Origin: Eubacteriales bacterium
Lineage (GTDB): Bacteria; Bacillota; Clostridia; Lachnospirales; Lachnospiraceae
Reading direction: 5' to 3'
NCBI GenBank assembly: GCA_030526005.1
Contig: JAUNDP010000005.1
Span: forward strand, 52,438 to 116,437
DNA: 64,000 bases
The notes under the pieces are model-generated. The model was not told the origin of the DNA. It ran no database searches and saw only the letters and a program-made list of their open reading frames with translations. Position numbers and translations under genes: made by a program. Of the stretch, positions 46,063 to 56,897 are shown in pieces (the first letter of the stretch is position 1; each line of letters begins with the position of its first letter).

Positions 46063-46129
46063 AAGTGTTTGTACAAGGGATTTCCCTGCATTGGAATGTG
46101 CCATCCGGCACAAAAAAGGAGGATTATTC

Positions 46130-47320
46130 ATGAAGAAGAAATTAGTGAGTGTATTGCTTTGTGTATCCATGGTTGCTGCTATGACAGCAGGCTGCGGAAA
46201 AGACGAGAAGGAAACAGAAAAGCAGACAGAAGCAACAGAAGCTGCTACAGTCAAAGAAAATGAGAACGAGACAACAAAATCCGGCGAAGGATTAAAAATT
46301 GCGATTGTCAGCAGTCCATCCGGTGTGGATGACGGAAGTTTTAACCAGAACAACTATGAAGGAATTTTAAGCTTTATTGAATCTCATCCGGATGCAACCG
46401 TACAGGCTGTCAAAGAAGAGACAGGAGACGTAGCGGCAGCGATTCAGGCAGTAGCGGACATCGTAGCAGATTATGATGTGATTGTATGCTGTGGTTTCCA
46501 GTTTGCAGGAATCGGAAGTATTGCACAGGATAATCCGGATGTGAAATTTATCCTGGTAGATTCCAATCCAACTGATGCAGAGGGAGCAGAAGTAGAGCTT
46601 GAAAATGTATATGCAATGACATTTGCAGAGCAGGAGAGCGGCTTCTTTGCGGGAGTTGCAGCAGCTCTTGAGACAGAGACAAATAAAGTAGCAGTTGTAA
46701 ATGGTATTGCTTATCCTTCTAACGTAAACTATCAGTATGGATTTGAATCCGGTGTCAATTATGCAAATGCAAAATTAGGAGCAGATGCAGAAATCGTAGA
46801 ACTGCCATCCTATGCGGGAACAGACGTGACAAATGCAGAAATCGGTGGAAACTATGTTGGAAGCTTTGCAGATGAAGCTACAGGAAAAATTGTCGGAAGC
46901 ACATTGATCTCTGAAGGCGTTGACATTATGTTCGTAGCAGCAGGCGGATCAGGAAACGGTGTATTTACAGCAGCAAAAGAAGCAGAAGGTGTAAAAGTAA
47001 TCGGATGCGATGTTGACCAGTATGACGATGGAGTAAACGGCGACACAAACATCATCTTGACATCCGCATTAAAAGTAATGGATGTAAACGTAGAAAAACA
47101 GCTGAATGCAATCGTAGAGGGAACATTTAAAGGTGAAAATGCGCTGCTGAAAGCAGATACAGATTCTACCGGATATGTAAAAGAGGAAGGAAGACACCAG
47201 CTTTCTGAAGATACACTGGAAAAACTGGACGAGGTTTATCCATTGGTAAAAGACGGCACAATCGTACCGGCTGCAAACTTTAACGGATATACTCCAGAAG
47301 ACTTTCCAGGACTGAATTAA
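46130..47320 (+). CDS. BMP family nucleoside-binding lipoprotein
   Basis: 396 residues from the ATG at 46130 (AAAGGAGG before it). N-terminal lipoprotein signal with lipobox TAGC at about residue 19-22 (AAMTAGCGKDEKE), then the Bmp/PnrA fold: DDGSFNQNNYEGI near 70, FAEQESGFFAGVAAAL near 185 and GNGVFTAAKE near 287. It binds nucleosides at the outer face of the membrane. A terminator-like hairpin follows, and the transporter genes come next, so the binding protein is likely made in excess over the ABC subunits. Confidence 0.93.
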   Translation: MKKKLVSVLLCVSMVAAMTAGCGKDEKETEKQTEATEAATVKENENETTKSGEGLKIAIVSSPSGVDDGSFNQNNYEGILSFIESHPDATVQAVKEETGDVAAAIQAVADIVADYDVIVCCGFQFAGIGSIAQDNPDVKFILVDSNPTDAEGAEVELENVYAMTFAEQESGFFAGVAAALETETNKVAVVNGIAYPSNVNYQYGFESGVNYANAKLGADAEIVELPSYAGTDVTNAEIGGNYVGSFADEATGKIVGSTLISEGVDIMFVAAGGSGNGVFTAAKEAEGVKVIGCDVDQYDDGVNGDTNIILTSALKVMDVNVEKQLNAIVEGTFKGENALLKADTDSTGYVKEEGRHQLSEDTLEKLDEVYPLVKDGTIVPAANFNGYTPEDFPGLN

Positions 47321-47330
47321 TACAGGAAAT

Positions 47331-47392
47331 AAGGGCTGTCTCAAAACAAAGAATTTACAGTTTGGATTGTTTTGTGACAGTCCTTTCTTTTC
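47331..47392 (+). terminator. Partial terminator after the binding-protein gene
   Basis: AGGGCTGTC-AAAACAA pairs with TTGTTTT-GACAGTCCT at 47331-47386, followed by TTCTTTTC. It probably sets the ratio between binding protein and transporter. Confidence 0.75.
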
Positions 47393-47466
47393 TTAGTAAG
47401 GAAAATTTGCCAAAATTATAAGTGCCGGGAGGCAGAGATCAGGAAAAATAAGGAGAAGATAAATAT

Positions 47467-49011
47467 ATGCAGGAAGAGTACATTGTGGAGATGAGGCATA
47501 TTACAAAGCGTTTCCCCGGGATTGTAGCCAACAGTGATGTATCGATACAGATCAAAAAAGGTGAAATCTATGCACTTCTGGGAGAAAATGGCGCCGGCAA
47601 ATCGACTTTGATGAGTATGTTGTTTGGAATGTATGAGCCGGATGAAGGGGAAATTTATATTCATGGAAAGAAAGAAAAAATTGCTTCTCCGACATATGCC
47701 ACAAAACTGAGCATCGGAATGGTACATCAGCATTTTAAATTAGTGCAGGATTATACAATCGCAGAGAATATTATTATGGGGATTGAGCCGCAAAAAAAAT
47801 TTTTAGGTTTGTTTCCTTATGTAGACAAAAAAGGAGCCAATGAGAAAATTGTAGCGCTTTCCAAACAATATGGTCTGGAAGTAGATCCCACAAAAAAGAT
47901 CAGTGAAGTCAATGTTTCGATTCAGCAGCGTGTAGAAATTCTAAAGATGTTATATCGGGAGGCAGAAATTTTAATTTTTGATGAACCGACAGCTGTTCTG
48001 ACACCGCAGGAGATTGAATTTCTGCTGGAAATCATAAAAGGACTGCGTGACAACGGCAAGACGATCATTTTAATTACACATAAACTGGAAGAGATAAAAA
48101 AAGTAGCGGACCGCTGCGCAATTTTGTGCAGAGGAAAACTGGTGGATGTGCTGGATGTAAAGACGACATCCACAAAACAGATGGCAAACTTGATGGTTGG
48201 AAGGGAAGTTACGTTTGAGGTAGAAAAAAAGGAGCCTGATTTTAAAGAGGTTGTGCTCCAGGTGGAAAATCTCTGTGTTGAAAATGAAAACCATTTTCAG
48301 GTTGTAAAAAATGTTTCTTTTTCAATCCGTGCGGGAGAAATTCTGGCAATCGCAGGGGTATCCGGAAACGGACAGGTGGAGATTGCAGATGCAATCGCAG
48401 GACTGCTCCCCGCATCAGAAGGACGAATTTTATTAAACGGAAAAGATATCACTCATGAAAGTATTCGCAAAAGAACACTGGAAGGGATTTCGTATATACC
48501 GGAAGACAGACAAAGATATGGTCTGGTTCTGGACTTTACGTTGGAAGAAAATATGGGGATGAAGAGTTATTTTAAGGAACCATTTTCTAAAAACGGAATT
48601 TTAAAACAGGAAGAATTTTCAAAATATAGCTCTGAACTGATTGAAAAATATGACGTGCGGAGCGGACAGGGCAATAAAACCGTTGTTCGGTCCATGAGCG
48701 GCGGAAATCAGCAAAAAGCAATCATTGCACGCGAGATCGAGATGGATTCTTCCCTGCTGATTTTTGTTCAGCCGACGCGAGGGCTGGATATAGGAGCAAT
48801 CGAAAAGATTCATAAGCAGATTATCGGGGAGAGAGACAAAGGAAAGGCAATTTTGCTGATTTCTCTGGAGCTGGATGAGATTATGAATTGTGCCGATACC
48901 ATTGCCGTAATCTATAACGGAGAGATTCAGAAAATTGCAGATGCAAAATCTCTCACAACACATGAAGTAGGAGAATTTATGATGGGGGTAAAACAGCATG
49001 AAAAGAGATAA
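47467..49011 (+). CDS. nupO: Nucleoside ABC transporter ATPase (double domain)
   Basis: 514 residues with two nucleotide-binding domains. The first has Walker A GENGAGKST near 38-46 and Walker B IFDEPTAVL; its signature reads VNVSIQQR, a change from the usual LSVGLQQR. The second domain has a degenerate P-loop (GVSGNGQVE) but a good signature (MSGGNQQK) and Walker B-like IFVQPTRGLD, typical of RbsA/NupO-type importers. It overlaps the next permease by 14 bp. Confidence 0.93.
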   Translation: MQEEYIVEMRHITKRFPGIVANSDVSIQIKKGEIYALLGENGAGKSTLMSMLFGMYEPDEGEIYIHGKKEKIASPTYATKLSIGMVHQHFKLVQDYTIAENIIMGIEPQKKFLGLFPYVDKKGANEKIVALSKQYGLEVDPTKKISEVNVSIQQRVEILKMLYREAEILIFDEPTAVLTPQEIEFLLEIIKGLRDNGKTIILITHKLEEIKKVADRCAILCRGKLVDVLDVKTTSTKQMANLMVGREVTFEVEKKEPDFKEVVLQVENLCVENENHFQVVKNVSFSIRAGEILAIAGVSGNGQVEIADAIAGLLPASEGRILLNGKDITHESIRKRTLEGISYIPEDRQRYGLVLDFTLEENMGMKSYFKEPFSKNGILKQEEFSKYSSELIEKYDVRSGQGNKTVVRSMSGGNQQKAIIAREIEMDSSLLIFVQPTRGLDIGAIEKIHKQIIGERDKGKAILLISLELDEIMNCADTIAVIYNGEIQKIADAKSLTTHEVGEFMMGVKQHEKR

Positions 49012-50092
49012 TTTGTTGAGTAATGATAAGACAGCTCCGATCGCCGTACCTCTGTTTGCCGTTCTGATCGGTTTGCTTGCAGGCGCTTTGATTATGGCCT
49101 GTCTGGGATACAATCCGCTTACTGCCTATATGAATCTGCTGCAGGGATGCGGACTTCTGCCCAAGCCTACCTATGCAGGATATAAGAGTATGCTGACGGA
49201 CTTTACAAGTTTTTTAAATGCACTGACGCCGATGATTTTTGCAGCGCTTTCCGTGGCAGTGGCATTTAAGGCAGGACTGTTTAATATTGGTGTTTCAGGA
49301 CAGATGCTTACAGCAGGATTTATATCCACTTTGATTGTAGGATACAGCAGCCTTTCAGCCGGGATTGCAAAACCTCTGGCTCTGCTGATCGGTCTTGTTG
49401 TAGGAGCTGTTGTAGGAGGCTTGATTGGTTTTCTGAAATATAAGTTTAATATCAATGAGGTAGTTTCCTCCATTATGTTGAACTATATTGCACAGTATAT
49501 CATCAGCTTTTTTATCAAGACACAGTATGTCGATCCGATTTCCAGACAGTCGAGAGCAATCAGCGCTGATTCACGGTGGACAATGATGAATACGGAGATC
49601 GGAAATTTAAAAATTGATATACCGCTTGCATTTCCGCTTGCGGTGATTATTGCTGTATGTATCTACTTTTTAGTGAAGAAGACGACACTTGGATATGAGC
49701 TCAAGACCGTTGGCATGAGCAGAACAGCAGCACAGTATGCCGGCATTAAGGTTGGAAAGACAATGATTCTGTCCATGGTAATCTCAGGAGCGCTTGCAGG
49801 ACTTGCAGGAATTACCTATTATATGGGATACTATGGCTCCATCCAGCCGGGAGTTCTGCCGAGTATGGGATTTGATGCGATCGCTGTATCCCTTTTAGGA
49901 AACAGCAATCCGATCGGAATTCTATTTTCTTCTTTCATGATCACAACGATCAGCAAGGGAAGCACTTATATGAGTTCCACATCCGGCGTACAGGCAGAGA
50001 TTGTATCTGTTATCACAGGAATCATTCTGCTGTTCAGCGCCTGCAGCGCATATATTCGTTATGTTGCAAAGAGAAGAAAGGAGGACAAATAA
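48998..50092 (+). CDS. nupP: Nucleoside ABC transporter permease, NupP type
   Basis: 364 residues, about ten membrane helices; the larger permease of the BMP-linked nucleoside importer. It opens with a cytosolic stretch, then LFAVLIGLLAGALIMACLGYNP and a FKAGLFNIGVSGQM motif near 86-99 shared by the family; a central loop 175-200 is polar. The ATG lies 14 bp inside the upstream ATPase gene. It meets the next permease with no gap. Confidence 0.93.
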   Translation: MKRDNLLSNDKTAPIAVPLFAVLIGLLAGALIMACLGYNPLTAYMNLLQGCGLLPKPTYAGYKSMLTDFTSFLNALTPMIFAALSVAVAFKAGLFNIGVSGQMLTAGFISTLIVGYSSLSAGIAKPLALLIGLVVGAVVGGLIGFLKYKFNINEVVSSIMLNYIAQYIISFFIKTQYVDPISRQSRAISADSRWTMMNTEIGNLKIDIPLAFPLAVIIAVCIYFLVKKTTLGYELKTVGMSRTAAQYAGIKVGKTMILSMVISGALAGLAGITYYMGYYGSIQPGVLPSMGFDAIAVSLLGNSNPIGILFSSFMITTISKGSTYMSSTSGVQAEIVSVITGIILLFSACSAYIRYVAKRRKEDK

Positions 50093-51052
50093 ATGAATAC
50101 GATTTTTATTGACGGTCTTTCTTTTGCACTGCCTTTATTTATTATGGCAATCGGAGGCATTTATTCAGAGAGAAGTGGAATTACCAACCTGGCGCTGGAA
50201 GGATTGCAGGGGGTAGGCGCATTTGTCGGAGCGCTTTCCGCAGTTTTTATGATGCAGTGGCTGGGGGCAAGTTCTCAGATCCCATTTTATGCAGCGCTGC
50301 TCTTTGCAATGCTGGGAGGTATGGTTTATGCAATGCTTCATGCACTCCTTTGCATTAAATTTAAAGCGAATCAGGTTATCAGCGGCGTTGTAATTAACAT
50401 TTTGGGAATGGCGCTGACTGCATTTTTGACAAAAGCAATCAACAAAAGTGTATTTGGAGCAACATCAGATAAATTTGTACTGGGTGTCTCTGAACGAATT
50501 ACAATCCCGGTACTTTCTGAAATTCCTGTAATCGGAGGTATTTTTCAGCAGATTTATCCATTTGAGTTTATTATTATTATCGTAGCAGTGATTGCGTGGT
50601 ATGTGCTGTATAAGACGCGCTTCGGACTGCATTTAAGAGCGTGCGGCGATAATCCTCATGCCGTAGATGCAGCAGGAATTAATGTGGGAAGAGTCAGACT
50701 GATTGCTGTCATGGTATCAGGAGCATTGTCCGGACTTGCCGGCATCTGTTTTGCATATTCGATCTCGGCAAACTTCTCGTCCAGTATTTATGTGGGATAT
50801 GGATATTTGGCCATCGCTGCAATGATTTTTGGAAACTGGAAGATTCTTCCGACACTGGGAGCCGTTTTGATTTTTGGATTTGCAAGATCAGGCGGATATT
50901 TCCTTGTAAAACAGCTTCAAATGCCAAGCAGTTATTCTGATCTTGTGATGACACTGCCATATGTCATGACGCTGCTGCTGTTGATTTTCTTCTCAAAACA
51001 CAATCAGGCACCGCGTGCACTGGGAGAGATTTATGATAAAGGAAAACGGTAA
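50093..51052 (+). CDS. nupQ: Nucleoside ABC transporter permease, NupQ type
   Basis: 319 residues, about nine membrane helices. IGGIYSERSGITNLALEGLQ near 17-36 and ACGDNPHAVDAAGINV near 180-196 are the family marks. GGAGGACAA upstream and ATG directly after the nupP stop indicate coupling. It forms the channel with NupP. The next gene, the deaminase, is 25 bp downstream. Confidence 0.93.
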   Translation: MNTIFIDGLSFALPLFIMAIGGIYSERSGITNLALEGLQGVGAFVGALSAVFMMQWLGASSQIPFYAALLFAMLGGMVYAMLHALLCIKFKANQVISGVVINILGMALTAFLTKAINKSVFGATSDKFVLGVSERITIPVLSEIPVIGGIFQQIYPFEFIIIIVAVIAWYVLYKTRFGLHLRACGDNPHAVDAAGINVGRVRLIAVMVSGALSGLAGICFAYSISANFSSSIYVGYGYLAIAAMIFGNWKILPTLGAVLIFGFARSGGYFLVKQLQMPSSYSDLVMTLPYVMTLLLLIFFSKHNQAPRALGEIYDKGKR

Positions 51053-51077
51053 AAATAGGAGAAATGAGGCGTAAAAA

Positions 51078-52352
51078 ATGAATACACGTTTTTATAATGT
51101 CAAAATTTTGACGAAAGGACCGGAATTTGAGATCTTAGAAGGAGAAGTCTGGGTAGAAGGAAATCGCATCACATGCGTAGGAAAACCAAAAGAAGAAAAA
51201 GTGAAATTTGATCATGAGATTGACGGAAAAGGAAATCTGCTGATGCCTGGGTTTAAAAATGCGCATACACATTCAGCGATGACATTTCTGCGCTCCTATG
51301 CAGATGATCTGCCGCTTCTTGACTGGTTAAACAAACAGGTATTTCCGATGGAAGCAAAATTGACGCCAGATGATATTTATGATCTTTCCAAGCTGGCGAT
51401 CCTGGAATATCTGACAAGCGGAATTACTTCCAATTTTGATATGTATCTGACGCCGGAAACGATCGCACAGGCATCTGTGGATATGGGATTCCGGACCGTT
51501 ATGGTGGGTGGAGTAAATAACTTTTCACAGTCTGTGCAGGAATTAGAGAAATGGTATGAACACTATAATCATTTCCATGAATTAATCCGGTTTGAACTGG
51601 GACTTCATGCAGAATATACGGCTTCAGAACAACTGATGAGAGAGCTGGCTGAACTGGCAGAGACGTACCATGCGCCGGTATACACGCATATGTCTGAGAC
51701 AGAAGAAGAGACAAAAGGATGTATCGAACGGCATGGCAAGACACCGACCGCTTATCTGGACAGCTTAGGAATGTTTAACTATGGCGGCGGCGGATATCAC
51801 TGTGTCTGGGTCAATGAAGAAGACATGAAAATCTTTAAAGAAAGAGGAATGTCTGTCGTGACGAATCCAGGATCCAATACAAAGCTGGCAAGCGGAATCG
51901 CACCGATCCGCCAGATGATGGAGATGGGCATCAATATTGGAATCGGAACAGATGGACCGGCAAGCAATAACTGTCTTGATATGTTCCGTGAGATGTTTCT
52001 GACGACCGGACTTGCAAAATTAAGAGAAAAAGATGCTTCCTGCGTGGATGCAGATCAGGTTCTGTTTATGGCGACAACAGGCAGTGCAAAAGCAATGCGG
52101 CTGTTTGACTGTGATACAGTGGCAGAAGGCAAGCTGGCGGATTTGATTTTGATCGATCTGCATCAGCCAAATATGCAGCCAATCAATAATCTGACAAAAA
52201 ATCTTGTCTACAGCGGAAGCAAACAAAATGTGGCATTAACTATGGTAAATGGCAAGATTCTTTATCAGAACGGACAGTTCTCTGTTGGAGAAGATCCGGA
52301 AAAAATTTATGAAAAAGCAAATCAAATTGCAAAAAGATGCAAAGAGAGTTAA
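51078..52352 (+). CDS. mtaD: Amidohydrolase, MTA/SAH deaminase type
   Basis: 424 residues; deaminates purine nucleosides with 5' modifications (methylthioadenosine, S-adenosylhomocysteine, 5'-deoxyadenosine). The metal ligands are His-x-His (NAHTHSAM near 56), His (GLHAEY near 178), His (YTHMSETEEE near 205) and Asp (GTDGPASNN near 294). The deamination product would be the inosine analogue, a substrate for the PNP coded at 43135. AGGAGAAATGAGG precedes the ATG. The MotA-like gene starts 33 bp later with no terminator. Confidence 0.88.
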   Translation: MNTRFYNVKILTKGPEFEILEGEVWVEGNRITCVGKPKEEKVKFDHEIDGKGNLLMPGFKNAHTHSAMTFLRSYADDLPLLDWLNKQVFPMEAKLTPDDIYDLSKLAILEYLTSGITSNFDMYLTPETIAQASVDMGFRTVMVGGVNNFSQSVQELEKWYEHYNHFHELIRFELGLHAEYTASEQLMRELAELAETYHAPVYTHMSETEEETKGCIERHGKTPTAYLDSLGMFNYGGGGYHCVWVNEEDMKIFKERGMSVVTNPGSNTKLASGIAPIRQMMEMGINIGIGTDGPASNNCLDMFREMFLTTGLAKLREKDASCVDADQVLFMATTGSAKAMRLFDCDTVAEGKLADLILIDLHQPNMQPINNLTKNLVYSGSKQNVALTMVNGKILYQNGQFSVGEDPEKIYEKANQIAKRCKES

Positions 52353-52385
52353 AAAAAGGAAAGGACAAAGGAGAGGAGTGATAAC

Positions 52386-54155
52386 ATGGGGCATAGAGTG
52401 TTCGGAGGAGTGCTGTTTGTTGCTGTCATCGCAGCGTGTATAGGACTGACGCTGTTTGTTGGAACAGATGCAGCATTTTCTATGATGGTATATAACTTTG
52501 GATTTTTAGGAGTTATGATTTTAATCTGTATCGTGGCAGTAGCCCGTGGTCTGGTCCGTATGGGACAGATGAATACTGCGCTCGATATGGCTTCAGGAAA
52601 ACTGGAGCAGATTAAAGAGGAAAATCAGGAAGAAAAGAAAAATCGTTTTCAGAGTCTGGGAAGAATTTTTTCTTACAAAGGCTTAAAAGAAAGAATGGAA
52701 AAATTTCTGCATGACTGGTATCGAAGCAAAGTTGGCGTGTGCGACATAGAAGACTATATCAATGCAGACGAGATTGATGGCATGGTTCAGAAAAGAATGT
52801 TGGAGATGGTTCCTGATATTCTGACCAGTATGGGTATTCTTGGAACGTTCGTGGGACTTGTATGGGGACTTCGAGATTTTGAACCTTCCAACTATGAGGC
52901 GATGACAACTTCTGTCGTCTCCTTGGTAGAAGGAATCAAAGTAGCATTTTTGACATCCATTTATGGATTGTCTCTGTCTGTATCGTATTCCTATTGTATG
53001 AAATCAGAATATTCAGATCTTATGATGACACTGCAGCGTTTTTTGGATATTTTCCACAGACATGTCGTTCCTTCAGCAGAAGCAGAGTCCAGAAATACGA
53101 TGCTTGCTTATCAGCAGGAACAGACAAAGATGATGCAGAACATGGCTCAGGAGTTTTCAAAACAGCTTGTAAGCAGTTTTGAGACGACCATTACACCGGC
53201 TTTTCAAAAGATGAATGAGTCGCTCGATGTCATGCTGTCTACGATTTCAAAGAGCCAAAAAGAAGTTTTGGACGAGTTGGTAGGACAATTCCTAAAGCAG
53301 TTGCGAGAATCTTTCCACATAGAATTTGCAGGCTTTAATGCAGCTGTCGAAGAGATGGCAAGCTCACAGAAGAGAAATGTGCTGTACACAGAAAAACTGT
53401 TCCAGCAGCTGAGCGTGGAATTAAACAATTCTTTCTTAAAAGAAGATCATTCCATGAGACAGATTGTCAAGGAAATGACAGATATTCAGAAGCAGTATAC
53501 ACAGGCAATGACAGAGACGATGCAGAAAAATCAGGAACTGGCAGAAGCACAGAACGAAAGCTGTCGCCGTACTGTATCCTATATGCAGGAAGCAGAAGAA
53601 AAATCAGCGAAATTCTGGGTGGCATGCAATCAGACAATGCAGAAATATCTTGACTCTGCTTCAAAAGCATTTGGAGATATTCAGGAAATCGGAAAGACAA
53701 ATGTAAATCTGCTGAAAGGATATGAGGATTCTCAGAAAGATCTGATGGCAAGTCTGGAAGCATTAAAAGAAGAATTTATCGACAGAGAAGGAAAAGTATA
53801 TACTGCATTTGAAGAGCTATATAAAGCAAACGAGAAATTGATTCTCAACTATAACCAGAGAGTTGGAGAATTTGTAGATGCGCAGAATATGATTTTCACT
53901 GTCCTGCGCAATATGGAAGATTTACTGAATCAGATTGAGGTATCTGGCGCAGCAGACCGTGTACAGTTAGGAAAAGAGACTGCCGCAGCCAAGGAAGAAA
54001 TGCCAGAGTTTAATTCTCAGATCATCAAGCATTTAGAGCAAGTGCTTGAAGAAGAGGGCGAGAGACAGAGTGAACTGATTGAGGAATTGAACAGTATCAT
54101 GAGAGAATTTGTGAAAGCAATTCAAAAGAATGGAAAGTTTTCACTCTTTAGATAG
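52386..54155 (+). CDS. ZorA-like MotA/TolQ/ExbB proton channel protein with long coiled tail
   Basis: 589 residues. Two N-terminal helices (8-28, 34-58), a cytosolic part, then the MotA/ExbB channel pair: SMGILGTFVGLVWGL near 146-160 and EGIKVAFLTSIYGLSLSVSYS near 181-201. From about 230 to 570 the protein is a long coiled-coil tail, as in ZorA of Zorya defence. In contrast to MotA it has no flagellar features. GAGGAGTG precedes the ATG. With the following gene it would form a proton-driven stator complex. The family role outside Zorya is poorly known, and no ZorC, ZorD or ZorE gene is next to it. Confidence 0.8.
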   Translation: MGHRVFGGVLFVAVIAACIGLTLFVGTDAAFSMMVYNFGFLGVMILICIVAVARGLVRMGQMNTALDMASGKLEQIKEENQEEKKNRFQSLGRIFSYKGLKERMEKFLHDWYRSKVGVCDIEDYINADEIDGMVQKRMLEMVPDILTSMGILGTFVGLVWGLRDFEPSNYEAMTTSVVSLVEGIKVAFLTSIYGLSLSVSYSYCMKSEYSDLMMTLQRFLDIFHRHVVPSAEAESRNTMLAYQQEQTKMMQNMAQEFSKQLVSSFETTITPAFQKMNESLDVMLSTISKSQKEVLDELVGQFLKQLRESFHIEFAGFNAAVEEMASSQKRNVLYTEKLFQQLSVELNNSFLKEDHSMRQIVKEMTDIQKQYTQAMTETMQKNQELAEAQNESCRRTVSYMQEAEEKSAKFWVACNQTMQKYLDSASKAFGDIQEIGKTNVNLLKGYEDSQKDLMASLEALKEEFIDREGKVYTAFEELYKANEKLILNYNQRVGEFVDAQNMIFTVLRNMEDLLNQIEVSGAADRVQLGKETAAAKEEMPEFNSQIIKHLEQVLEEEGERQSELIEELNSIMREFVKAIQKNGKFSLFR

Positions 54156-54178
54156 GAAGATCAGAAAGGAATGGTAAG

Positions 54179-55261
54179 ATGTCCAAACGCAGAGAGTCAA
54201 ACAATTTTAATGTATGGCGTTCCTATTCTGACATGATGGCCGGACTTTTGATGCTGTTTGTATTAATTATGTGTGTAACTTTGTTTCAGGCGCAAAAAAA
54301 TTATGATGAAAAAATTGCAGAGCAGGAAGAACGAATGGCGATGCAGGCGCAGTACACAAATGAGCTGGATCAGCAGAAACTGACCGTGGAACAGCAGGAA
54401 GCACTTTTAAAAAGCCAAGATGAGCTGTTAGCTTCCCAGAAAACAAAACTGGAGGAACAGGCAGCTAAGCTGGCAGAACAGCAGGCGACGCTGAAGACAC
54501 AGGAAGAAAAGCTGACTCAACAGCAGACTTCGCTGAAGGAACAACAGACAACACTGGCAGAGCAGGAAAAGAAGCTGGCAGAGCAGCAGGCGACATTAAA
54601 GACACAGGAAGGCCAGATTACAGAGCAAAAGGCAGCTCTGAAAGAGCAGAAAGGAAAACTTGCCGAACAGCAAAGCGCATTGGAAGAACAGACTGCAAAA
54701 GTGAAAGAAAAGCAGGCACAGCTCGATAAGATTATCGGAGTGAAGGCAGATGTCATAGAGGCGCTGCGAAATGAATTTACAAATCACAATATCAATGTTG
54801 ACATTGATCCGCAGACAGGAGCTTTGCTTCTGGACTCTAATGTCCTGTTTGAATTTGACGATACCACACTGCTGAAAGAAGGCGAGGAAGTCTTGCAGCA
54901 GGTATTGCCGATTTACTGTGAGGTATTGCTGGGAGAAGAATACCGTGACAATGTGGCAGAGATTATTATTGATGGCTATACAGACACAAATGGAACGTAT
55001 GATTACAATCTGGAATTGTCGCAGAAACGATCTTTAGCTGTTGCACAGTACCTTTTGGGGATAGATGAACAGTTTCTGGATGAACAGCAGATGCAGATGC
55101 TTCAGGAAAAACTGACAGTAAACGGACATTCCATGAGCAATCCGATCTTGAATGAGGACGGAACGGTAAATATGGAGGCATCAAGACGTGTGGAAGTAAA
55201 ATTCCGCCTGAAAGATGAAGACATGATTTCGGAGATGTCAAAGATCGTAGCGGAGGAATAA
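54179..55261 (+). CDS. ZorB/MotB-like protein with coiled coil and OmpA domain
   Basis: 360 residues. A short cytosolic N-terminus, one membrane helix (about 16-40) opening with SYSDMMAGLLMLF, where Asp18 is the expected proton carrier, then a Gln-rich coiled coil (45-185) made of repeats like LAEQQATLKTQ, and an OmpA/MotB peptidoglycan-binding domain (about 190-350, FEFDDTTLL, IIIDGYTDTNG, SQKRSLAVAQYL, EASRRVEVKF). The long coil between helix and OmpA domain is unusual for ZorB or MotB and would extend the wall contact. It follows the ZorA-like gene by 23 bp. Confidence 0.85.
   Translation: MSKRRESNNFNVWRSYSDMMAGLLMLFVLIMCVTLFQAQKNYDEKIAEQEERMAMQAQYTNELDQQKLTVEQQEALLKSQDELLASQKTKLEEQAAKLAEQQATLKTQEEKLTQQQTSLKEQQTTLAEQEKKLAEQQATLKTQEGQITEQKAALKEQKGKLAEQQSALEEQTAKVKEKQAQLDKIIGVKADVIEALRNEFTNHNINVDIDPQTGALLLDSNVLFEFDDTTLLKEGEEVLQQVLPIYCEVLLGEEYRDNVAEIIIDGYTDTNGTYDYNLELSQKRSLAVAQYLLGIDEQFLDEQQMQMLQEKLTVNGHSMSNPILNEDGTVNMEASRRVEVKFRLKDEDMISEMSKIVAEE
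54370..54735 (+). repeat. Degenerate tandem repeats coding the coiled coil
   Basis: Units with CTGGCAGAGCAGCAGGC or similar recur about every 42 bp (14 residues, LAEQQATLKTQEEK type), giving the Gln/Glu/Lys coil of the MotB-like protein. Repeat number may vary between strains. Confidence 0.7.
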
Positions 55262-55298
55262 GAGTTAAGAAACAAATTGGAAAATAAAGGTGACAAAT

Positions 55299-56774
55299 AT
55301 GAAGAAATTAATAAGAAAGGTAGCTTTGATTGCAGGCGTATTCCTGCTGGGAACATGCACAATCCAGAAAGCAGATACCGTACAGGCAGCACAGGTCAGA
55401 CAGATCAAAGATGGATTCGGATCAGAAAATGGCCATACGGTATATTGGAAAAACGGAAAGAAAGTCAGAAGCCAATTTCTGACCATAGGAAGCGATACTT
55501 GGTATTTTGACGGGAATGGATATATGGTGACCGGATACCAGAAAATAGAGGGAAAATCTTATTACTTCCGAAGAGAGGGATCAGAGCATTACGGCGCTAT
55601 GATTAAAAGTCGGTTCATGAAGCTGGGAAACAATACTCTGTATTTTTGCAAGACAGGCGATGCCATTGTAAATAAGGTAGTAAATATTAACGGAAAATAT
55701 TTCGGATTTAATGAAAGAGGATACCGCCAGACAAACATGTTCCGTGATTACAACGGCGGAACGTATTATCTGGGACCAGATGGAAGAGCTTATACAAACG
55801 GTGTGTATGAAATTAACGGAAAACGGTATTGCTTTGCCTCCAATGGAAGATGCTATAAAAATGTAGTCAAGACAGTTGGAAAAAATACATACTATTTTAA
55901 TGCAAAAGGAGAAGCCGAAAGAGGACTTCGTTCCTATAAAGGAGACCGCTATTATATTTGCAAAGATTACACATTACTGAAAAGCAGATGGAAAGTTATC
56001 AATGGAAAAACATTCTATTTCTTAAAGACAGGAAAAGCCGCAAAAGGTGTAGTCAGCATTGGAGGAAAGAAATATCTGTTCCAGAGCGACGGAATCCGTA
56101 TAAACGGACCTGGATTTAAAACATTAAACAGCCAGAAATATCTGTTGGATTCCAACTCAGCAGTTCTGACAGGATGGCAGAATTATGGCGGAGAAACATA
56201 CTATTTCTCTTCTAATGGAACGATGGTGGTCAGCCGTTTTATGACCAGAAATGGAAAGAAATGTTATCTGACCTCAAAAGGTACTCTGGCAAAAGGATGG
56301 GTCGTTTTAGGGGAAGATCGGTATTATTTCTTAAAAGACGGCTCCATGGCTACAAACCGTGTTTTAGGCAGCGACTATGTGGGATCTGACGGAAAGTCCG
56401 CATGTTATCAGATGCTTGCTGCAATCAATGATGAGAGAGAAAAAGCAGGGGTTGCACCGCTGAAAATGAATAAGTATCTGCTGAGCGCTGCAGCAGTGCG
56501 TAGTCCGGAAATCACAATTTTATTTGATCATGTAAGACCAAACGGTCAGATGTGCTTTACAGCTGTCAGCCCGGCATATGTAGGAGCGCTGGGAGAAAAT
56601 ATTGCATGTGCACCTTCACCGCTGCCGTTGATCGACAATATTGTCAATATGTGGATGAACTCACCGGGACATCGTGAAAATATCCTGAGAAGCGAGTTCA
56701 AAGGTACAGGAATTGGTCTTTCCTATAAAAATGGCGTATGGTACTGGGTACAGATGTTTGGATCAGTCAGATAA
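55299..56774 (+). CDS. Secreted wall-binding CAP/SCP domain protein
   Basis: 491 residues from the ATG at 55299 (AAAGGTG before it). Signal peptide 1-30 (KVALIAGVFLLGTCTIQKADTVQAA part), then about 12 glucan/choline-binding-type repeats (YYF, YFNAKGE and W-containing units, 45-355), and a C-terminal CAP/SCP domain (about 365-490) with FDHVRPNG, ENIACAPS and NSPGHRENILRSEF, which hold the His and Glu of the CAP cleft. It follows the ZorA/B-like pair by 37 bp. The repeats should bind wall or exopolysaccharide. CAP domains may act as a protease or bind ligands; here unproven. Confidence 0.87.
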   Translation: MKKLIRKVALIAGVFLLGTCTIQKADTVQAAQVRQIKDGFGSENGHTVYWKNGKKVRSQFLTIGSDTWYFDGNGYMVTGYQKIEGKSYYFRREGSEHYGAMIKSRFMKLGNNTLYFCKTGDAIVNKVVNINGKYFGFNERGYRQTNMFRDYNGGTYYLGPDGRAYTNGVYEINGKRYCFASNGRCYKNVVKTVGKNTYYFNAKGEAERGLRSYKGDRYYICKDYTLLKSRWKVINGKTFYFLKTGKAAKGVVSIGGKKYLFQSDGIRINGPGFKTLNSQKYLLDSNSAVLTGWQNYGGETYYFSSNGTMVVSRFMTRNGKKCYLTSKGTLAKGWVVLGEDRYYFLKDGSMATNRVLGSDYVGSDGKSACYQMLAAINDEREKAGVAPLKMNKYLLSAAAVRSPEITILFDHVRPNGQMCFTAVSPAYVGALGENIACAPSPLPLIDNIVNMWMNSPGHRENILRSEFKGTGIGLSYKNGVWYWVQMFGSVR

Positions 56775-56814: not shown

Positions 56815-56897
56815 AAAAGGATATCTCAAAAGATGAAAATAAGAAGCCTGCGCTGCAGGAACTTAAAAATTCTTTTGCGGTATCCTTTTTCGATCTT
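56815..56897 (+). terminator. Long nested hairpin/terminator after the CAP gene
   Basis: AAAAGGATA pairs with TATCCTTTT at the outside, TCTCAAAAGA with TCTTTTGCGG nearby, and CCTGC/GCAGG at the tip; a T run follows at 56886-56890. Longer than a normal terminator. Confidence 0.65.

Follow-up and report, generated by a model that had tools for sequence, protein, structure and literature searches.

A long-necked ZorAB-type protein pair without recognisable Zorya effectors in Lachnospiraceae: a possible ion-driven machine of the Gram-positive envelope

What does a ZorA/ZorB pair do where the other genes of the Zorya phage-defence systems are not found with it? The question is raised by a 64,000-nucleotide stretch (hereafter the window, to whose positions all coordinates refer) of contig JAUNDP010000005.1 (assembly GCA_030526005.1) from a gut-type, Gram-positive bacterium of the family Lachnospiraceae, which carries a zorA-like gene, a zorB-like gene and a gene for a predicted secreted protein with choline-binding repeats and a CAP domain, one after the other on the plus strand (Table 1). 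The original prediction, made from the sequence alone, described three open reading frames (ORFs) spaced 23 and 37 bp that encode a MotA/ExbB-type channel protein, a MotB-type protein with a carrier-type Asp and an OmpA domain, and a secreted repeat/CAP protein; the ORF coordinates bore out the layout (zorA-zorB 23 bp; zorB-CAP 37 bp, counting from the ATG at 55299), and Pfam and PADLOC searches bore out the protein types. Two roles were offered for them, an envelope machine or a Zorya-derived defence module with a new effector, of which the first has gained a plausible setting and the second has been weakened by the results below. We propose that the pair forms a ZorAB-type 5:2 ion-driven motor in the Gram-positive envelope that is neither flagellar nor defensive, and put the probability of this reading at a little over one half.

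The ZorB-like protein matched Pfam OmpA (PF00691, 1.8e-10) and the PADLOC ZorB1 profile (2e-67); its best sequence match in the PDB was the ZorB of 8qyd (2e-15), and the best structural match of its AlphaFold model was ZorB II. ZorA was closest to PADLOC ZorA1 (7e-21) and, in the PDB, to the ZorA of 8vvn (3e-13); it scored 21.0 bits against Pfam MotA_ExbB by hmmscan, short of the cut-off of 22.9, and 24.9 bits in the genome search, where it was the only MotA_ExbB match of the source genome. None of the NCBIfam Zorya cut-offs was reached by the window ZorA or ZorB. In an alignment of 25 pairs (those of the 24 genomes described below, plus L009), the pore motif of ZorA with T147, T190 and S191 and the presumed carrier Asp18 of ZorB were invariant, so that the channel and Asp residues were kept in homologues as expected. 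Equally invariant were T268, D269, L280, R284, R336 and R337 of the OmpA-type domain; the position of H186 of Zorya I ZorB is occupied by Tyr267 in the window ZorB. Judged by spacing, T268, L280, R284 and R336 would correspond to T187, L199, R203 and R254 in Zorya I ZorB, with R336 placed to within one residue; these are positions which passages of PMC11890865 connect with peptidoglycan binding. With the ZorA5B2 complexes of Zorya types I and II (8vvn, 8vvi and 8qyd; described in passages of PMC11890865), the window group shares the channel motif, the carrier Asp, the OmpA-type peptidoglycan-binding domain and a long ZorA tail, but differs in a longer ZorB neck, core-like retention in three genera, and housekeeping or wall-protein neighbours.

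A flagellar stator role in the window genome was ruled out, as that genome (G000) gave no match to FlhA and held the single MotA_ExbB match named above; this agrees with the original prediction that a flagellar-type role was unlikely. FlhA likewise gave no match in G001 or G002 and was present in 9 of the 24 pair-bearing genomes. A MotB from the same family scored 52 bits with the ZorB profile versus 91-214 for Zorya-type ZorBs, and its MotA was unmatched; the long ZorA tail further separates the window pair from MotAB and MotPS. In contrast to the setting of Tol-Pal and Ton systems, an outer membrane is not expected in the window lineage. TolQR and ExbBD are pentamer:dimer ion motors that work on the envelope, according to passages of PMC12204202, and the window pair would be of the same motor type, although unlike theirs its B subunit has an OmpA-type domain.

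The ZorB profile was searched against 397 genomes of the family, 227 of which gave a match at E ≤ 0.001. Of these, 24 lay above a score gap (≥ 243 bits; next 159) and were kept, and the rest were taken as MotB, OmpA-domain or coiled-coil proteins by score, span and ORF length, with six inspected (L064-L068 and the MotB in L103). The zorAB pair was present in these 24 genomes, spread over 20 genera. Zorya effectors were not found in them. Matches to ZorC (EH_Signature) numbered 0 of 24, and the control genomes in that search likewise gave no match; by hmmscan the EH_Signature model matched the ZorC-like proteins of L069, L177 and L179 and missed that of L176, a weak ZorC match seen by PADLOC only. 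One ZorE model matched none of the 24 genomes and did match its E. coli control. Full-length ZorD was found in 0 of 24 genomes, with more than 1100 bits in two Zorya control genomes (G059 and G613), and partial SNF2-type ZorD matches (187-250 bits) occurred in 7 of the 24, none of them the window genome. Among 104 neighbour proteins from 23 loci, PADLOC gave no match to ZorC, ZorE, ZorF or ZorG at E ≤ 1e-10, the ZorF/ZorG search covering these neighbours only; the scan took 104 of 113 listed proteins, leaving out nine doubtful, mostly short ORFs, from a list that excludes proteins of > 900 aa or with internal stops.

A complete Zorya system was ruled out by these results, which confirm the claim of a ZorAB-like pair without ZorC, ZorD or ZorE. 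The accompanying premise that ZorAB always occurs with ZorC/D or ZorE does not hold, given effector-less pairs in 24 of 397 family genomes and type III Zorya, which consists of ZorA, ZorB, ZorF and ZorG (passages of PMC8565338); the window group resembles type III in having ZorA and ZorB and differs in the missing ZorF/ZorG matches. Zorya systems elsewhere in the phylum do have ZorC/D/E-type genes (ZorE at L099, for example), and in a phylum-wide sample of 398 genomes eight others had a ZorB at E ≤ 1e-30, all on short ORFs of 229-251 aa. We class the pair as a variant of the ZorAB kind and not as Zorya.

A striking property of the group lies in the ZorB neck. One heptad position of the window neck held hydrophobic residues in 19 of 21 cases (18 Leu/Ile/Val and one Tyr), and the AlphaFold model placed residues 10-202, which cover the neck, in one continuous helix; the neck probably forms a dimeric coiled coil. 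By hand arithmetic, its 149 residues at 0.15 nm each would make an alpha-helix ~22 nm long, similar to the gap of 20-odd nm that separates membrane from wall in Gram-positive bacteria. The distance from the carrier Asp to the peptidoglycan-binding motif was 172-276 residues in the long-necked group versus 114-133 in 11 Zorya-type ZorBs. Thus the effector-linked ZorBs examined were short-necked and the effector-less group was long-necked, where the effector check on the 11 references excludes L108 (a Burkholderia stretch) and L178 and found only a weak match in L176. Inside each subgroup, neck lengths differed by whole heptads only; for the two densely sampled genera the subgroup was given by genus and not by the tree, L159 was not counted in its genus subgroup, L171 is truncated, and L151 and L163, which the first pattern missed, were measured separately. 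The null figure for this pattern (1.5e-12) takes distinct lengths as independent and ignores slippage of 21-bp repeats, and is not used as a probability. The long straight helix of the model and the conserved wall-binding domain would also suit a passive wall tether or stretch-gated channel, in which the neck joins membrane to wall and the membrane part of ZorA/ZorB no longer rotates. We consider this very improbable, because the carrier Asp and the polar pore residues, invariant in 25 of 25 pairs, would be superfluous in a simple tether.

The pair also behaved like a resident gene in part of its range. Among 61 genomes searched at the protein level, both other sampled members of the window genus had close relatives, and two distant relatives turned up besides; in the named collection, close matches came from one Robinsoniella (L007) and two Lachnospiraceae (L008 and L009) metagenome-assembled genomes. 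The pair was near-universal in three genera, with 3/3 genomes in the window genus and 12/13 and 17/19 in two others. The two other sampled members of the window genus had identical gene order and synteny from nucleoside-transporter and amidohydrolase genes to topoisomerase genes, so the locus is not a chance run of ORFs; decaying ORFs were likewise rejected. ZorA identity among the three genus members (77-81%) was similar to that of a nearby parC-like gene (81-83%), and dN was low with dS saturated or undefined (NG86). Retention within the genus, synteny and the parC-like identity are more in keeping with a core gene than with a defence system. On plasmids, ZorB matched 35 records at 1e-5 and 94 at 1e-3; coverage of the query fell short of 80% in every case, and these records were used purely as references.

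These observations bear on the most obvious rival, a Zorya-derived defence function whose effector is encoded elsewhere or whose ZorA tail recruits a host protein, with ZorB sensing phage-induced wall damage and signalling inward. Its closest solved relatives are indeed the ZorA and ZorB of Zorya, the peptidoglycan-binding and ion residues needed for Zorya defence are kept, the family-wide distribution is sparse, and at L061 the third gene upstream of the pair encodes an Mrr-like nuclease similar to the nuclease domain of ZorD. However, the effector searches of the 24 genomes and 104 neighbours came back as described, the neighbours are largely housekeeping genes, the pair is retained like a core gene in three genera, and the effector-linked ZorBs examined in the same phylum are short-necked; moreover, passages of PMC8565338, citing Doron et al., report that ZorAB alone is insufficient for defence. 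We regard defence as unlikely. The missing DNA-acting partners, the long heptad-stepped stalk and the secreted wall proteins found nearby in some lineages together make an envelope machine likelier.

Those wall proteins differ between lineages. The third window protein matched choline-binding repeats (1.7e-34) and CAP (5.6e-15) in Pfam and has an N-terminal hydrophobic segment. A CAP gene adjoined zorAB in 3 of the 25 loci, all in the window genus; its absence from the other 22 orthologous pairs (the contig of L009 ends after zorB) rules out a fixed three-gene operon, and with it the fixed ZorAB-CAP machine first proposed. At L045, L047 and L051, a secreted choline-binding-repeat NlpC/P60 protein was encoded upstream of the pair, with a secreted transglutaminase-like protein in between at L045 and L047. 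In the genus designated g94, such an NlpC/P60 and repeat gene lay ≤ 5 ORFs upstream in 14 of 17 loci, and the other three contigs begin at the pair (14 of 14 visible loci). In g166 it was present upstream in 4 of 13 loci; three others had the transglutaminase-like gene only, one an opposite-strand NlpC-type gene without repeats, and five none. The 17 NlpC/P60-repeat proteins compared kept the catalytic-type Cys motif, and several gave no pattern match for one or both His. Among the 104 neighbours, choline-binding repeats were the commonest Pfam family (four proteins), followed by NlpC/P60 (three), with a wall-type 3D domain in two. By hand, chance would supply at most ~0.7 repeat-protein neighbours among 104, versus the four seen in three genera (basis: 467 repeat matches in ~71 Mb from 24 genomes, a figure that can only overstate the number of proteins); the enrichment is no more than suggestive, given that one arrangement is common to two of these genera. 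Other secreted choline-binding-repeat proteins with CAP or NlpC/P60 domains show the same union of repeats and enzyme-type domains in Pfam, and what sets the present ones apart is their linkage to a ZorAB pair. They may be lineage-specific accessories that modify or mark the wall at the motor anchor.

It is also conceivable, if improbable, that the motor is real and the CAP and NlpC/P60 proteins are bystanders that merely share its locus, the motor working with a cytoplasmic partner in another envelope process such as division, the septum or turgor sensing. In keeping with this, 19 of the 25 loci had no choline-binding-repeat neighbour in the listed neighbourhood, four pair-bearing genomes (G340, G078, G405 and G105) had no match at all to the choline-binding-repeat family, and the window pair starts 33 bp after a set of nucleoside-type ABC transporter and amidohydrolase genes. 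Against it stand the NlpC/P60 linkage, which recurs as given above in two genera although the downstream neighbours vary within both, and the recurrence of the same protein type with another domain, CAP, in the window genus.

Under the reading that we favour, five ZorA subunits would form a membrane wheel with a cytoplasmic tail, and two ZorB subunits an axle with Asp18 within the membrane. The ZorB dimer would extend outward as a long straight coiled coil, setting its OmpA-type domain in the thick Gram-positive wall, further out than in Zorya ZorB. Ion flow past Asp18 and the Ser/Thr ring might then rotate ZorA, tail included, about an axle held by the wall; alternatively, wall engagement might gate the channel. 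Either way the state of the wall would be coupled to a cytoplasmic partner. Ion flow, rotation and the coupling to wall enzymes or a cytoplasmic partner are proposed by analogy with the ZorAB model published in PMC11890865, as given in its passages.

Several observations weigh against this reading. Zorya ZorB itself binds peptidoglycan (passages of PMC11890865), so a wall-binding domain alone is no argument against defence. Family-wide the pair is sparse (24/397), and in some genera one sampled species has it while another lacks it. The 19 loci without a repeat-protein neighbour imply that the wall link may be secondary, and the linkage to wall proteins has perhaps two independent origins. The heptad-step length changes could come from slippage of the 21-bp repeats without selection, and G808 carries two ZorAB pairs (L157 and L159), of which L159 has a divergent ZorB with a neck of 214 (4 modulo 7), off the class of its genus. 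The ZorA AlphaFold model was too poor for use (mean predicted local distance difference test score 42.7). An extra N-terminal transmembrane segment as a mark of the group was ruled out: by hydropathy, 24 of the 25 ZorAs had two N-terminal segments and a Klebsiella type I ZorA had one, and the type I Zorya ZorAs of Clostridia L069 and L098 also have two. Finally, in the ZorB tree the 25 family rows fell into three supported subgroups (12, 7 and 6 rows; a set of seven around the window is one supported branch inside the subgroup of 12), were split off together by a single branch in 0% of bootstrap trees, and shared an open fork with Klebsiella ZorB1, which has a very long branch, and L095; as the tree does not join the subgroups in one clade, we do not claim a group that is sister to Zorya.

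In a literature search of partial coverage we found no account of a ZorAB group that lacks effectors and has long necks or wall enzymes as neighbours; the passages of PMC9389320 among the literature compared describe no effector-less long-necked ZorAB, and those of PMC12505986 treat ZorAB as a remote, phage-defence-related homologue. If the proposal is correct, ZorAB motors serve more than defence, and such genes may be mislabelled as partial Zorya by defence finders whose rules are relaxed, such as PADLOC with its two-gene 'other' class (passages of PMC8565338). An axle crossing the space beneath the Gram-positive wall would be a new coupling of ion flow to wall state, and its measurable length (in heptad steps) offers a direct test of what sets the membrane-wall distance. 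The short necks of effector-linked and the long necks of orphan pairs provide a natural contrast for the motor's shift between envelope work and immunity. We hold a more far-reaching version to be rather doubtful: a non-defence monoderm ZorAB motor whose length-quantised coiled-coil axle spans the membrane-wall gap and powers or gates secreted wall-remodelling enzymes, as a Gram-positive functional counterpart of Tol-Pal, with Zorya possibly its defence offshoot or the reverse.

Table 1. Features of the zorAB locus and of its products, in window positions.
Feature	Position	Strand	Basis
zorA-like gene, 589 aa	52386..54155	+	PADLOC, PDB, hydropathy, alignment
ZorA transmembrane segments (hydropathy-predicted), residues 5-23, 39-57, ~141-162 and 177-195; then tail of ~370 residues			
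ZorA pore region, residues 145-198	52818..52979	+	alignment of 25 orthologues
ZorA tail coding region, residues 220-589, presumed cytoplasmic	53043..54152	+	alignment
zorB-like gene, 360 aa: transmembrane helix, long neck, OmpA-type peptidoglycan-binding domain	54179..55261	+	Pfam, PADLOC, PDB, AlphaFold
Presumed ion-carrier Asp18 codon of ZorB (WRSYSDMM)	54230..54232	+	invariant in 25/25
ZorB neck, residues 37-185	54287..54733	+	heptad analysis
21-bp tandem repeat array inside ZorB neck	54469-54594	+	
ZorB OmpA-family domain, residues 223-325	54845..55153	+	Pfam, structural match
Choline-binding-repeat and CAP-domain gene, product secreted (predicted)	55299..56774	+	ORF listed from GTG 55290
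Imperfect inverted repeat, then T-run, 3' of CAP gene; possible terminator	56816..56890	+	by eye

The ABC transporter set and amidohydrolase gene occupy 46091-52386 on the same strand, and from the 33-bp gap zorAB may be co-transcribed with them. A promoter scan performed no better than chance (11 matches vs 13.4 expected). The alternative ATG start of the CAP ORF has AAAGGTG just before it. The inverted repeat downstream of the CAP gene is not listed by an automated hairpin scan (loops ≤ 8).

ZorA tails varied strongly in length between subgroups. Many, including that of the window (54111-54152), finish in a short tip of basic and aromatic residues (RGLF or GKFSLF, for example), and the ending is (M/T)R(x)(L/M)YE(K/E) in seven ZorAs with short tails; judging from these motifs, the tips are a possible docking site for a cytoplasmic partner.

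When ZorA was searched across 391 genomes of the class, 40 of them gave a match at E ≤ 0.001, and further, more distant pairs were added. Two of these, L095 (distance 213) and L102 (195), are also long-necked and lie outside the genomes checked for effectors. At L095 (176-5452), from another family of the class, ZorAB is followed by a 170-aa protein without a Pfam match and an alpha/beta-hydrolase-type protein. ZorAB-like pairs form a second set in other Clostridia, at L100 (9296-11273), L102 (9761-12273), L104 (7896-9837) and L106 (6817-9472); their neighbours are seemingly housekeeping genes by eye, and ZorB starts with FWP(S/A/T)FTD in the first three.

Some loci met in the searches combine related proteins with other partners. 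At L069 (3339-17785), a type I Zorya system (ZorA-ZorB-ZorC-ZorD) has an SMC-like protein of 1470 aa and two smaller genes immediately upstream, which we take to resemble Wadjet JetABC, and at L105 (3425-15372) a ZorAB-like pair lies downstream of a 1170-aa gene and a protein with a weak, below-cut-off Tubulin_2 match. A 952-aa protein at L064 (7567-10425) looks by eye like a Ser/Thr kinase at its start; its match to the ZorB profile falls in the OmpA-type part. At L096 (9618-12152) and L097 (6768-9886), ZorA-profile matches are followed by a protein with one transmembrane segment and SpaA (prealbumin-like) domains, which at L097 also weakly matches the ZorB profile; the pair adjoins a gene with ParA/AAA_31-type matches that is Wzz/tyrosine-kinase-like, and may be a 5:2 motor carrying pilin-like domains, set in a polysaccharide locus.

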